DNA of 64,000 nucleotides from Brachymonas denitrificans (GTDB lineage Bacteria; Pseudomonadota; Gammaproteobacteria; Burkholderiales; Burkholderiaceae_C): contig NZ_CAJQUA010000001.1 of assembly GCF_907163135.1 (NCBI RefSeq), forward strand, positions 2,371,001 to 2,435,000. The letters are read 5' to 3'. The position numbers and the translations under genes are program-made. Below are positions 1,537 through 62,258 of this stretch, in pieces. The stretch's first letter is position 1. Each line of letters opens with the position of its first letter. The notes below the pieces were generated by a model. The model had not been told where the DNA came from. It did not search any database and saw only the letters and a program-made list of their open reading frames with translations.

Positions 1537-1569
1537 GCGCATGTTTGACCCCACCCCTCTTTGTTTTTC

Positions 1570-1685
1570 GGGGTTACACGGGTTACACGGGTTACAGCGT
1601 TGATTTTATTGATGTTTTCCTGTAACCCCATGGCAAAACGCTGGGGTTACAGGGGTTACACGCTGGGGTTACAGGCGGGGTTACA
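1570..1685 (-). repeat. GTAACCCC repeat element, left copy (inverted)
   Basis: This non-coding stretch holds GGGTTACA at 1571-1578, 1580-1587, 1589-1596, 1643-1650, 1652-1659, 1665-1672 and 1677-1684, and an opposite TGTAACCCC at 1621-1629. The opposed copies 1622-1629 and 1643-1650 can pair around a 13-base loop. Read on the minus strand it matches the plus-strand elements at 10328-10450 and 12985-13072, including the spacer that resembles TCAATGAAATCAACG. The role is unknown; an iteron-type replication site is one possibility. Confidence 0.8.
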
Positions 1686-1773
1686 GGGCGCTATCCATGG
1701 CGTGGTGTTGCTCCGCCAGCACGCCGCAGTAAATGGGTAAGATGCAAGCATCCATCCACCGTAGGGAGATGAA

Positions 1774-2598
1774 ATGTTTGGCTGGTTTTCGAGAAAGATA
1801 TTCGGAAGCAAACCAGTGGACGCCAGAGAAGCGAGTGAGCAAGAGCCAATGCTGCGGCAGCGCGCCAAAGAGTTGGCAATCGCGGCAGGCCCAAAGGTAA
1901 CGCTTCAACGCGAAGAAGCTGCGTTTACCTACACGATGAAGAGTGTGCAAGGCCTATCAGAGAGAGAAAAGAGCGAGATTTTCAGCATGGTGCAAAGCTG
2001 TGGAGGCTTTGGCTTGCCGCACAACTACATGGAGCCTGTTTTTCAGCGGTATTTTGCCGAACGGCCATGGGCATGGTTGGAGATTGCCGAGTGGCGAACC
2101 ATTTTTGACAAGGCCCGATTGTCTACTCCACTTGATTTCCCAGAAGTATGGGAGATAGACCCCGCCAAGGTTAGCGTGCAGGTGTCGCGCGAGGAAGCGC
2201 TGGAACAACGTACCGTGGCAGAGCTAAAGGAAACTCTTGCAAAAAATGCCATTCCCTTTCGTTCGGGGGCAAGAAAGGCTGAGTTGGTTCAGCTCTTGGC
2301 TGAATCTGGTTGCTCGGAAGTTGACCGTTTGTACTATCAGTTCCAAGAGCAAAAGCGGCGCTCTGGGGGCTACGGCCTCTATAAAAAATTGATGCGATGC
2401 ATAAATTTACGCGCCATGGGATTGGGTAGACGGAGCGCGGCAGGGAATACGTTCATCAAAGAGGAGTTAGTAGTTTTTGATACGACTTACGCTAATGTCA
2501 TAGAACGATATTTGGCAGGAAATCCTGACGCGATGCTGCCACTATTTCCCGGGGATCACAGCTTCTTCCATGTGCAACTGAATTTTCGTCAGAGGTGA
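1774..2598 (+). CDS. unknown protein with SAP-like motif
   Basis: The 274-residue product is not recognised as a whole. Residues about 148-182 (RTVAELKETLAKNAIPF, SGARKAELVQLL) look like a SAP helix-extended-helix motif, a fold that often binds DNA. The C-terminal part is rich in basic and aromatic residues. The start is supported by AGGGAG about six bases upstream of the ATG. Base composition is clearly more AT-rich than the chromosomal genes, which suggests separate acquisition as cargo next to the integrase, where satellites often carry defence genes. A defence role is only a guess from position. Confidence 0.7.
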   Translation: MFGWFSRKIFGSKPVDAREASEQEPMLRQRAKELAIAAGPKVTLQREEAAFTYTMKSVQGLSEREKSEIFSMVQSCGGFGLPHNYMEPVFQRYFAERPWAWLEIAEWRTIFDKARLSTPLDFPEVWEIDPAKVSVQVSREEALEQRTVAELKETLAKNAIPFRSGARKAELVQLLAESGCSEVDRLYYQFQEQKRRSGGYGLYKKLMRCINLRAMGLGRRSAAGNTFIKEELVVFDTTYANVIERYLAGNPDAMLPLFPGDHSFFHVQLNFRQR

Positions 2599-2795
2599 TG
2601 CTAAGGTGCGGCCACTTACGTGAGGCTTTTCCCCCGGCTTCCCAGCGAAATGCGAGGATGCGCTTGCCCAATCTTGCGCCTGCCTGTGCATCACCCCCGC
2701 TGGCTAAGTCGGTAAGCTAACCCACCAAAACTGCTCACCGAGGCGGTTCTTTCATGCCATGTCCAATGCCCTTTGACAGGCACGTGGGTGAAAGA

Positions 2796-3017
2796 TCAAT
2801 CTTTCGCCGGGCGCAGGTACGCGGCGTGCAGGCGCTCCACTTCCAGCAGCAGAGCCAGATGCTTGCCGACCCATTCCGGGATCGGCACGCCTTCAGTGCG
2901 CCAGCGGCTGGGCGTATTGCGATGCAGGCCAGTGGCGCGGCAGAAGTCAGAAACCTTCCAGCCCAAGGCGTGCAGGTGGGCGTCGAAGTCTTGAAGGGTG
3001 TAGGCGTGTTGCGTCAT
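2796..3017 (-). CDS. small HTH DNA-binding protein
   Basis: The 73-residue protein contains a helix-turn-helix-like segment (WKVSDFCRATGLHRNTPSRWR) followed by EGVPIPEWVGKHLALLLEVERL, a layout seen in small phage and island regulators and antitoxins. It reads leftward, away from GTTATGTG/CACATAAT repeats that lie just upstream (3045-3089) and could be its operator. No clear ribosome-binding site is seen. It could be an element repressor, but no target is known. Confidence 0.65.
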   Translation of the reverse strand: MTQHAYTLQDFDAHLHALGWKVSDFCRATGLHRNTPSRWRTEGVPIPEWVGKHLALLLEVERLHAAYLRPAKD

Positions 3018-3695
3018 GGTGTGATTCTAGGCTATTTTTTCCCGGTTATGTGCTTTATTTGACGATAGATTCACATAATTAAACATAACGCTCGTTGTAT
3101 CAAGTATGCAAAGTGGACAACTTTCTGCACACTATCGGGAATAGTCAATGCAGACGCGGGTTTACCGATGTTATGCACAATGCCCACCATTTAGGCACAT
3201 CAACGGGAAACCAAACGATCCGGCACCAGAGGCAGTTATCCACAGGGGCCCACCTACTGGAATCCCCGAAATGTGCGGTTTTTGATAGGTTGCGCCAATG
3301 GCGGCAAGAATCGACGCCAGCCTAAAACGTCAGGGCGTCATCGACCTGGTGCTGGCGGCGGGTTTCTTGAGTCCCTAAAAAGCGCAGTGCAGATTCTGGC
3401 GGCTCAATTTTGAGCCGCGAGATGCGGCAGGATCAGCAAAACGCAAAATTGCGCTCAGCCCAAAAATGGGCTTAGCACAGTCCAAAAGTGGACAGTCCCC
3501 AGCGCGGGGGCACCTTGGTACACCTGAATTTTTGGAGCCTATAAAAAGACCGATGCACAGATTTGAGCATCGGCAGGGCGATGTGCGAATCTGCATATCG
3601 GGAGCGGCACCATCCAGCCGAAGCTAGTCCCTGCACCTGGTGTTGCAGGCAAAAGAAAAGCCGCACGATGGCGGCTGCTGTGGGGCTGGGCGGGA
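3018..3695. other. gene-poor region with a cluster of short hairpins
   Basis: No convincing gene is seen in these 678 bases. From 3399 on there are four consecutive small palindromes: 3399-3418 (9-bp arms), 3442-3453 (CGCAA/TTGCG), 3458-3471 (GCCCA/TGGGC) and 3480-3493 (GTCCA/TGGAC), each with an A- or T-rich centre. A fifth, CCGATGC/GCATCGG, lies at 3550-3573. A 26-codon reading frame at 3298-3378 begins ATGGCGGCAAGA but is too short to call. TTTTGATAGG at 3280-3289 repeats the half-site found upstream of the toxin-antitoxin pair. A structured RNA, origin or regulatory region is possible. Confidence 0.5.
3045..3089. promoter_or_regulatory. candidate operator upstream of the small HTH gene
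   Basis: GTTATGTG (3045-3052) is opposed by CACATAAT (3072-3079), and a further ACATAAC lies at 3083-3089. The sites are in an AT-rich patch with promoter-like TTGACG at 3059-3064. Placement directly upstream of the leftward HTH gene suggests autoregulation; this is inference. Confidence 0.4.
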
Positions 3696-58674: not shown

Positions 58675-59931
58675 TTACAAATCGGGCTGTCCTCCCAGTG
58701 CCGCATCCAGCACCTCGATCCAGTGGCGCACCGGCGTGGCTGTGCCCGATTGCAGATGCGTGATGCAGCCGATGTTGGAGGAAACGATCACGTCCCCGCG
58801 TCCCTGCAGCTGCCCCAGCTTGCGGTCGCGCAATTGCTGTGACAGTTCCGGTTGCGTTACCGAATAGGTGCCGGCCGAGCCGCAGCACAGGTGCGCCTCG
58901 CTGGCGGCGCGCTGCAGCGCGAAGCCCAGCCGCGGCAGCCAGGTTTCCACCGTATCGCGCACGCGCTGGCCATGCTGCAGCGTGCAGGGCGGGTGGTAGG
59001 CCAGCGAGCGCCCCCGGCCCAGGCCATCCGGGTGCGCGGCCAGCAGCGCTGGTGCCAGTTCCGGCAGCATTTCGCTCAGGTCGCGCAGCAGCGACGCCAT
59101 GCGAGCGGCCTTGTCCGCATAGGCCGGATCATGGCGCAGCACATGGGCGCTTTCCTTCAGCATCAGTCCGCAGCCCGAGACGTTGCTGACGATGGCCTCC
59201 ACACCGGCCTGCCCGTCACGACCCTCCACCAGCGGCCACCAGGCGTCGATCAGCGCGCGCAACTGGGCCCGGCCGCCGTCCTGGTCATTCATGTGAAAGC
59301 GCACCGCCCCGCAGCAGCCCTCGTTCGGCGCCAGCAGGGTCTGGATGCCGGCTGCATCGAGCACGCGCGCCGTGGCGGCGTTGATGCCGGGCTGCATGGC
59401 CGGCTGTACGCAGTTGGCATGCAGCAGGATCTTGCGTGCATGGTTGCGCACGGGCCAGTGGCCGGCCGGGCTGCGCTCGGGCACCTTGGCGCGCAGGCTG
59501 GCGGGCAGCAGGCCGCGCACCGTCTGGCCCAGGCGCATGGCCGGCGCAAACAGTGGCGAGGGCAGGCCTTCCTTCAGCGTCCAGCGCAGTGCGCGTTCGG
59601 CGGCCGGGCGCGGCACGCGCTCGTCCACGATCCTGCGGCCGATGTCGACCAGATGCCCGTACTGCACGCCGCTGGGGCAGGTGGTTTCGCAGTTGCGGCA
59701 GGTCAGGCAGCGGTCCAGGTGCAGTTGCGTGGCGCGGGTCGGCGTGCTGCCTTCCAGCACCTGCTTCATCAGGTAGATGCGGCCGCGCGGGCCGTCCAGC
59801 TCGTCGCCGAGCAGCTGGTAGGTGGGGCAGGTGGCGTTGCAGAAGCCGCAGTGCACGCACTTGCGCAGGATGGCTTCCGCCTCGCGGCCTTCGGGCGTGT
59901 TGGCAAATTCGGGCGCAAGCGTGGTCTGCAT
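58675..59931 (-). CDS. glcF: glycolate oxidase iron-sulfur subunit
   Basis: GlcF is the electron-transfer subunit of the membrane-associated glycolate oxidase. The 418-residue protein has two 4Fe-4S motifs [12 protein letters not shown] (near residue 25) and [12 protein letters not shown] (near 75), and two Cys-rich CCG domains ([20 protein letters not shown]). It is the last gene of a leftward operon that begins with glcE and has lrgA and lrgB between. glcD is not next to it in this window. Confidence 0.95.
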
Positions 59932-59935
59932 GGCG

Positions 59936-60652
59936 TCAGCGGAACAGGGTGTGGATCAGGGGGATGAGCAGCGAGCCGAGCAGGGCCTGCAGGCCCAGCG
60001 CCAGGCCGGCATAGGCGCCGGCCTCGGCATTGAGCTGCAGCGCCCGGGCGGTGCCGAAGCCGTGGGCCTGGGTGCCGAAGGCAAAGCCCTGCACCGGCCA
60101 CTGGTGTTCGCCGATCAGCTTGAAGACATAGCTTCCGAGGATGGCGCCGATCAGGCCGGTGGTCAGCACGAAAACCGCGGCCAGTTCGGGAATGCCCTGG
60201 ATGGATTGCGCAATGCCCATGGCCACCGGCGCCGTGATGGCCTTGGGTGCCAGCGACAGCAACACCGAGGGCGGCAGGCCGAGCAACCAGCCCATGCCGA
60301 CGGCAGCGCCCGATCCCACCGCGCCGCCGATCACCGCCGCCAGCAGCAGCGGCCGGGCATGGCGCGCCAGTACCTCGCGCCGCACCCACAGCGGCCAGGC
60401 CAGCGCGACCACGGCCGGTCCGAGCAGGAAGTGGATGAACTGCGCGCCGGAAAAGTAGCGCGGATAGGGGGTTTTCGTGATCAGCAGCAGGGCGATCAGC
60501 GTGACCACCGACCACAGCACCGGATTCGCCCAGGGGTTGTAGTTGAGCCGGGTGTAGATGGTCACCGCGAGAATGTAGGCGCTGAGCGTGGCCGCCAGGC
60601 CGAACAGCGGCGTACTCGACAGATAGGTGAAGAAGGCGACGAAATCACTCAT
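59936..60652 (-). CDS. lrgB: LrgB/CidB-family membrane protein
   Basis: The 238-residue protein has about seven membrane helices and the LrgB-family signatures [33 protein letters not shown] and [15 protein letters not shown]. The family was named for murein hydrolase control in Staphylococcus, but the plant plastid relative PLGG1 transports glycolate and glycerate. Its start overlaps the lrgA end by eight bases, and its stop is four bases before glcF. Location inside the glycolate oxidase operon favours a glycolate transport role. Confidence 0.9.
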
Positions 60653-61028
60653 GGCCGTTCTCCGCGGAGGCCTTGGCAGACGGGCGCAGCAGCAGGCGCA
60701 GCACCCAGGCGGTGGCGGCCAGGCCCAGCAGCGTGGACAGCACCAGCACCAGCGCAATGCGTGCCCCGTACTCCTGCAGCAGGGGCAGCTGGCTCACCAC
60801 GCCCACGCTGATCGGCACGAACAGCAGGGAGAGGTGCGACAGCAGGAATTCCGAGCAGACCTGCACCGGTTCGCGCAGCGGCTTCCAGGCCAGGCAGGGC
60901 AGCAGCAGGATCATGCCGATCACGGGCGCCGGCAGGGACAGGTGCAGCAGGCGCGCGATCATCTCGCCGGCGCCCTGCAGGATCAGCAGGATGGTGAAGC
61001 CTTGCAGGCCTTTCATGTGCGGCCCCAT
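60645..61028 (-). CDS. lrgA: LrgA/CidA-family membrane protein
   Basis: The 127-residue protein has four predicted helices (GFTILLILQGAGEMIARLL, LPAPVIGMILLLPCL, SLLFVPISVGVVSQLPLL) typical of LrgA. It forms a membrane pair with LrgB. The start overlaps the glcE stop by one base (TGATG) and the end overlaps lrgB, so all four genes are translationally linked. Confidence 0.9.
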   Translation of the reverse strand: MGPHMKGLQGFTILLILQGAGEMIARLLHLSLPAPVIGMILLLPCLAWKPLREPVQVCSEFLLSHLSLLFVPISVGVVSQLPLLQEYGARIALVLVLSTLLGLAATAWVLRLLLRPSAKASAENGHE

Positions 61029-62179
61029 CAGAATGCCTGGCCGTCGGCAAAAACGCCATGCGGATCGAAGGCCTGTTTCAGGCCCTGGTGGATGCGCTGC
61101 AGGGTAGCCGGCAGCGGCGCCTGGCGGGGCAGGCTGGCCGTGGCGATGTCACCGCTGCCCGCATGGCTTGCCGGCAACTGCCACAGCATGGCGTGGCCGC
61201 CGGCCGAATCGGCCAGGGCGTGCAGGGCGGTGGCCTGCCGTGCGTCGCAGGGAGCCCACAGCCAGCGCTGGCCGCCATGCCATTCGACCAGCGTGGGCCA
61301 GACATGGGCGAAGGCCGGTGTCACCTGCGGCACGGACAGGCGCCACAGGCCCCAGTCCGGCTGCGGTGGCCGGGCAAAGAAATCGAGCAGCTGGTCGCGG
61401 CAGGCAGTCCAGCCGTCGCGGGCGGCGTCGGCCTGCACCAGCGTGGCGCCATGCTGCCCGGTCATCATGCGCACGGCAGCGTCCACGGCGGCGCGGGCAC
61501 CGCGCAGGCGCAGATGCAGGCAGGGGCCGTGTTCCAGCTGTTGCCAGCGGCTGGCATCCAGCGGCAGCGGCTGCGCGCCCCAGGTGTGGAGCAGGTCCAG
61601 CGCCTGCTGTTGCGGCAGGGCAAAGGCCAGCGTCGCCTCGGCCGGCGCCAGCGGCAGCACCTTGAGGGAGATTTCGGTCAGCACGGCCAGATTGCCCCAG
61701 GAGCCGGCCAGCAGGCGGCTGATGTCATAGCCGGCCACGTTCTTCATGACCTGGCCGCCGAAGGTGAGTGCTTCGCCCTTGCCGTTGAGCGCCTGCACGC
61801 CCAGCACGAAATCGCGCAGCGCGCCGGCACTGGCGCGGGCCGGACCGCTCAGGCCGCTGGCAACAGCGCCGCCCAGCGTACCGGCGAGGCTGCTCCCCAG
61901 CCGGGGCGGCTCGAAGGCCAGAGCCTGCCCATGCTGCGCCAGCGCCGCTTCCACCTCGGCGAGCGGGGTGCCGGCGCGTGCCGTCAGCACCAGTTCGCCG
62001 GGTTCATGGCTGAGGATGCCGCTGTGTCCGCGCGTGTCGAGCGGGGCGGCAGCGGGCGTTGCCGGACACAGGCTGTCCTTGCTGCCACCGCCGCGGATGC
62101 GCAGGGTGGCGCCATCGGCCACGGCCGCCAGGATGCGATCGCGCAGCGCGTTCAGGGAGGGTTCGGGAAGCTGGGCCAT
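61028..62179 (-). CDS. glcE: glycolate oxidase FAD-binding subunit
   Basis: GlcE is the smaller FAD-binding subunit of glycolate oxidase. The 383-residue protein has a PCMH-type FAD domain: LRIRGGGSKDSL, RAGTPLAEVEAALAQHGQAL, GSSLAGTLGGAVASGLSG, GGQVMKNVAGYDISRLLAGS and GVFADGQ at the end. It is followed directly by lrgA. The catalytic GlcD gene is not in this window, which is unusual because glcD normally precedes glcE. Confidence 0.94.
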   Translation of the reverse strand: MAQLPEPSLNALRDRILAAVADGATLRIRGGGSKDSLCPATPAAAPLDTRGHSGILSHEPGELVLTARAGTPLAEVEAALAQHGQALAFEPPRLGSSLAGTLGGAVASGLSGPARASAGALRDFVLGVQALNGKGEALTFGGQVMKNVAGYDISRLLAGSWGNLAVLTEISLKVLPLAPAEATLAFALPQQQALDLLHTWGAQPLPLDASRWQQLEHGPCLHLRLRGARAAVDAAVRMMTGQHGATLVQADAARDGWTACRDQLLDFFARPPQPDWGLWRLSVPQVTPAFAHVWPTLVEWHGGQRWLWAPCDARQATALHALADSAGGHAMLWQLPASHAGSGDIATASLPRQAPLPATLQRIHQGLKQAFDPHGVFADGQAF

Positions 62180-62258
62180 GCCGCAATGCTAAGCCAGAGC
62201 GGCCTTGGCAGCAGCAGGGACTTTCGTGAATTTTTCAGACAGCGGCCGTGAGCGCGGC

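Follow-up and report, generated by a model that had tools for sequence, protein, structure and literature searches.

A LrgA/LrgB gene pair within a glycolate oxidase operon of Brachymonas: a candidate carrier for glycolate

The window analyzed, a stretch of 64,000 nucleotides, contains a run of four genes on the minus strand, glcE-lrgA-lrgB-glcF (62179-58675), which the initial annotation had described as a tight array and which is confirmed as such. Coordinates and supporting matches are reported in Table 1.

Table 1. Features of the glcE-lrgAB-glcF region; positions refer to the window.
Feature	Position	Strand	Support
glcE, glycolate oxidase FAD-binding subunit	61028..62179	-	NF008439 equivalog 410.6 bits, cut-off 284; PF01565
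lrgA, small partner subunit	60645..61016	-	PF03788 87 bits; start inferred from B. denitrificans L008
lrgB, transporter subunit bearing the broken-helix motif PKAITAP	59936..60652	-	PF04172 235 bits; AlphaFold model
glcF, glycolate oxidase iron-sulfur subunit	58675..59931	-	NF008434 equivalog 640.5 bits, cut-off 333
fur-glcE gap, 79 nt; possible promoter/control region	62180..62258	-	sequence comparison, window versus B. denitrificans L008

The lrgA and lrgB genes overlap by 8 nt (ATGAGTGA), and 4 nt lie between the end of lrgB and the start of glcF; both spacings are as first described, while the reported one-base overlap of glcE and lrgA probably has to be revised. The longest lrgA reading frame begins at 61028, and a second methionine codon is found at 61016 (ATGAAAGGC). 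In the sister species B. denitrificans, locus L008 reads glcE-TGA-GGAG-ATGCAAGGC, matching this second methionine. Since the B. denitrificans ATG follows a GGAG just past the glcE stop, sequence comparison indicates that the true start of lrgA is probably 61016 and not 61028, and a gap of 11 nt would therefore probably separate glcE from lrgA. The same gene order is present in B. denitrificans (L008, L134) and in several other genera, and is thus no artefact of the window assembly; the LrgB of B. denitrificans (G134) shares 90% identity with that of the window. In the gap between fur and glcE, two short blocks are common to the window and L008, CTGTCTGAAAAATTCACG and CTCTGGCTTAGCATTGCGGCATGG, the latter extending into the start of glcE; no match to the sigma-70 consensus was found in a promoter scan of this gap.

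Membership of the two proteins in the LrgB/CidB/GGT family (PF04172 plus PF03788) is clear: both match their Pfam models over the full length, LrgB covering positions 1-212 of 214 with a score far above the cut-off of 25 bits, and the LrgA/CidA-type partner gene adjoins and overlaps lrgB. The pair differs from other family members in lying within a glycolate oxidase operon, and in scoring below the CidB/LrgB equivalog cut-offs that define "autolysis modulators" (TIGR00659, 171 versus 249.7 bits; PRK10711, 142 versus 267; PRK04288, 101 versus 264). LrgB is 32% identical to E. coli YohK, with which it shares the invariant and nearly invariant residues of the alignment. The AlphaFold model of LrgB (pLDDT 90.4) features a break at 135-140, between helices 128-134 and 141-150, which falls at the conserved PKxxTAP region. 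This predicted broken helix would be compatible with a re-entrant core, which has been put forward for the family and is described for CPA/AT relatives (PMC8396727). A fold search of the PDB with the model gave no significant match (the top ones, ASBT-type symporters, had E > 1), and no homologue of solved structure was found by sequence search.

The initial annotation had remarked that neither glcD nor a glcA-type permease gene is present here. This holds within the window; elsewhere in the genome (2.75 Mb) both families are represented. A full-length, probable glcD is located at C1:2518681 (L004), about 85 kb beyond glcE: its product scores 778 bits with NF008408 and 504 bits with TIGR00387, by far the best-scoring models but each short of the curated cut-off (897 and 567.9), and is the same protein as the GlcD encoded in the glc operons of relatives. 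Its neighbours (L088) are purU and a gene for a GcvA-like LysR regulator. The single match to PF02652, the LldP/GlcA permease family, is at C1:109083, unlinked to glc or lactate genes; the glc operon of the window contains none. A second, divergent LrgB is encoded at C1:557676, also unlinked. Neither a RuBisCO large subunit nor a glyoxylate carboligase scoring over the family cut-off was found in the genome; salvage of phosphoglycolate from RuBisCO is ruled out for this organism by the absence of the enzyme.

Recurrence of the arrangement was evaluated in related genomes. An initial survey of public genomes covered the 80 LrgB loci nearest to that of the window. At more than half of them a GlcD-type gene, about 80% identical to the GlcD of the window genome, immediately precedes lrgAB, in genera including Polaromonas, Rhodoferax, Variovorax, Hydrogenophaga and Curvibacter; two loci from metagenome-assembled genomes read glcD-glcE-lrgA-lrgB, one of them complete through glcF. 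This set is biased toward close relatives, and two further samples were therefore taken: 121 genomes of the family to which the window belongs, about one per genus, and 110 genomes of the order. LrgB was defined as close at an identity of at least 55%, and as linked when no more than 8 kb separated it from glcD or glcF; locus coordinates for the family count were transcribed manually. The glycolate oxidase subunits are nearly universal in the family sample (GlcF in 116 of 121 genomes, GlcD in 116 of 121), while LrgB is found in 60 of 121.

Most close LrgB loci of the family, 26 out of 41, are linked (19 to glcD, 3 to glcF, 4 to both), against about 0.3 expected from random placement (binomial P ~5e-45, a value which ignores shared ancestry); chance adjacency is accordingly rejected. 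At 44-54% identity 3 out of 14 loci are linked, each following glcE-glcF; none of the 16 loci at lower identity is, and none of the 38 outside the family, though many genomes there carry both genes. The initial annotation had proposed such a count, and had regarded confinement of this gene position to a single strain as evidence against its reading. Instead, linkage occurs in about 28 genera, takes several gene orders and involves two or more LrgB lineages, and a strain-specific insertion is rejected as well. Most family genomes bearing GlcDEF have no close LrgAB, which is therefore not obligatory for glycolate use.

Linked loci show different ARRANGEMENTS: purU-LysR-glcD-lrgAB; (glcD-)glcE-lrgAB-glcF; glcE-glcF-lrgAB; and lrgAB divergent from glcDEF (L057). 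Gene joins are mostly shorter than 110 nt. In LrgB trees, whose branch support within the main clade is modest and whose change counts do not separate gains from losses, the glcE-lrgAB-glcF loci do not form one clade: a single origin of this order is rejected by the AU test (p 1.9e-5). The glcEF-lrgAB loci form part of a separate clade. Given several arrangements and separate LrgB clades, the link between lrgAB and glc arose or was re-established on more than one occasion, and such repeated linking is stronger evidence of function than an inherited gene order. At three loci (L145, L154, L170) lrgAB is still found beside purU, in L154 also beside a LysR gene, with no glcD there; glcD is located elsewhere (G174, G128) or is absent (G182).

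The LldP/GlcA permease resembles LrgAB in adjoining glc genes, and differs in belonging to an unrelated protein family (PF02652). An intact lldP is found near glc genes in 12 family genomes, mostly directly before glcD, and in 11 of them lrgAB is unlinked to glc. Among the 29 linked genomes, 21 encode GlcDEF yet lack any intact, full-length PF02652 gene; two of the 21 (G192, G213) retain broken or partial matches. The corresponding figure for unlinked GlcDEF genomes is 50 out of 87, and the contrast amounts to no more than a trend (Fisher p = 0.19; for adjacency, p = 0.29): a clean swap of one permease for the other is not supported at significance. In G192 the order LysR-lldP-glcD-glcE-lrgAB-glcF (L257) runs across the circular join of the contig; its lldP (1541-3256) is decayed to three pieces of 44-55% identity, versus 76-79% for lldP in other glc operons, while lrgAB is intact, although the decay could, less probably, reflect an assembly fault. 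In G119, lldP and lrgAB are both intact within one glc operon; the two, therefore, need not exclude each other.

Some close LrgB genes have other neighbourhoods, either lactate-type or unrelated. One lies after lutBC, with lldP nearby (L039), another after a fused FAD-FeS oxidase similar to GlcD/GlcF (L026), and in L139 lrgAB shares an operon with an oxidase of this fused type and with lldP. A class-V aminotransferase gene directly follows lrgAB in L028 (6821-8020) and L033, from Achromobacter aestuarii and Schauerella fraxinea; for the L028 product the nearest NCBIfam model is the aspartate-glyoxylate aminotransferase BhcA, with a score below the cut-off. Allofranklinella and its relatives (L009, L013, L018), which form the closest sister lineage, have lrgAB at an unrelated locus, inside the isc/hsc iron-sulfur cluster genes. 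LrgB is present without GlcD/GlcF in four genomes (G146, G154, G182, G222), and only the LrgB of G182 falls in the close identity class. These contexts point to the carriage of small hydroxyacids in general, with glycolate oxidase genes as the commonest partner.

Relatives studied by experiment are carriers of small carboxylates. PLGG1 of plant plastids, a fused LrgA-LrgB protein, carries glycolate and glycerate (PMC4368765, PMC6993116): the domain pair is the same, and the substrate class would be too, judging by analogy. The window proteins differ in being two polypeptides, in the context of a bacterial respiratory glycolate oxidase and in a genome without RuBisCO. Among bacterial pairs, PftAB (YsbAB) of B. 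subtilis is a facilitated, two-way, two-subunit pyruvate system (PMC5626966), and LrgAB of S. aureus has a role in pyruvate uptake for which both genes are required, action of the two proteins as one complex having been proposed (PMC8805020). Both are, similarly, two-gene carriers for a small carboxylate; in contrast to the window pair, neither has been described as belonging to a glc operon, and both are controlled by LytST/LytSR-type systems (PMC5626966, PMC8805020). E. coli YohJK, a proteobacterial homologue, is a putative exporter of 3-hydroxypropionate, again a small hydroxyacid (PMC7642389), but the stand-alone yohJK adjoins cdd and has no glc linkage. Rhodoferax ferrireducens grows with glycolate as its only source of carbon (PMC2755013), and other Rhodoferax loci carry glcD-lrgAB. 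The LrgB Pfam ranks 25th among those tied to the Calvin cycle in one paper, with no further mention there (PMC7895386). No description of a bacterial lrgAB in a glc operon was found in the literature searched, a body which leaves out many subscription journals. The LrgAB family and its plant glycolate link are already known; what may be new is the incorporation of an LrgAB pair into the glycolate oxidase operons of bacteria.

LrgAB is almost certainly coupled to glycolate oxidation. The recurrence of linkage, the variety of gene orders, the absence of intact LldP/GlcA from most linked genomes and the small carboxylates carried by the tested relatives together argue that the pair is probably a two-subunit carrier of glycolate, and likely of other small 2-hydroxymonocarboxylates, feeding GlcDEF, rather than a lysis device. 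LrgA and LrgB would be made together with GlcE and GlcF and would assemble into a membrane carrier, the formation of one complex being suggested by analogy with PftAB and S. aureus LrgAB; glycolate would enter the cell through it and be oxidized to glyoxylate by GlcDEF, with GlcD supplied from its separate locus and the electrons passed to the respiratory chain. Glycolate as the actual substrate and an inward net flux are inferences, since some relatives adjoin lactate-type oxidase genes and lldP, the G119 operon contains both LldP and LrgAB, and the window genome has an LldP-family gene elsewhere. Of the initial reading, a glycolate carrier in place of a lysis protein, the metabolic carrier role is thus strongly supported by context and tested relatives, while substrate and direction keep the status of a proposal.

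A part in cell lysis or in the control of murein hydrolases, with an incidental position in the glc operon, would agree with the family annotation and with the holin-like activity that CidA and LrgA show in S. aureus (PMC8805020). The same S. aureus study, however, reports the pyruvate uptake role, and repeated re-linkage to glc genes, in varied orders and in two LrgB lineages, is not expected for lysis control, which is very improbable here. The pair might instead be a general carrier of small monocarboxylates (lactate, pyruvate, glycolate) with no specificity for glycolate, glc being one of several hydroxyacid-oxidase contexts: the bacterial relatives so far tested carry pyruvate, and close relatives are found behind lutBC near lldP (L039) and behind fused FAD-FeS oxidases (L026, L139), in L139 together with lldP. 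Yet in the close clade no other neighbour comes near glycolate oxidase genes in frequency (26 of 41 loci), lactate-type cases being few, and such lack of specificity is considered rather unlikely.

A reversed flow also has to be weighed, in which LrgAB serves as an overflow or relief valve exporting excess glyoxylate, another 2-oxoacid or glycolate whenever oxidation outruns assimilation, with import left to LldP or a different permease. Two-way transport by PftAB (PMC5626966) and the exporter behaviour of YohJK (PMC7642389) are compatible with it, as are the joint presence of LldP and LrgAB in the G119 operon and in the oxidase operon of L139, the aminotransferase gene, nearest to BhcA though below the cut-off in L028, that follows lrgAB in L028 and L033, and the lack, in the window genome, of a glyoxylate carboligase with a score above that cut-off for its family. 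In the 21 linked genomes without an intact full-length LldP/GlcA gene, however, something else must import glycolate, and this export reading, like that of a general carrier, is a live but rather unlikely rival.

Returning to the preferred reading, uptake of glycolate through LrgAB, it is conceivable, at somewhat less than even chance, that across a broad set of Burkholderiales, many Comamonadaceae among them, this lineage has become the principal importer of glycolate and has replaced LldP/GlcA. Phytoplankton release glycolate on a very large scale, and glcD serves as a marker for bacteria taking it up. In many such bacteria the importer is not obvious, as in the linked genomes that combine GlcDEF with no intact LldP/GlcA, and a glc-linked LrgAB would fill this gap. 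If the reading is correct, the LrgAB fold transports glycolate not only in plant plastids but also in bacteria; the "holin/antiholin" label of these genes would need correction, and the glc-linked pair would offer a bacterial model for the photorespiratory carrier PLGG1.

Genes other than lrgAB are also found between glc genes. A gene for a SAM-dependent methyltransferase lies between glcE and glcF in several loci of a group comprising L197, L199, L203, L205 and L158; in L158 it is located between glcE and lrgA and matches PF13649. At six loci (L225, L226, L228, L241, L250, L252) the glcE-glcF slot is occupied by a gene for a DUF1275 protein with multiple transmembrane segments (PF06912, tested in L241), a possible second candidate for a membrane partner of glycolate oxidation.
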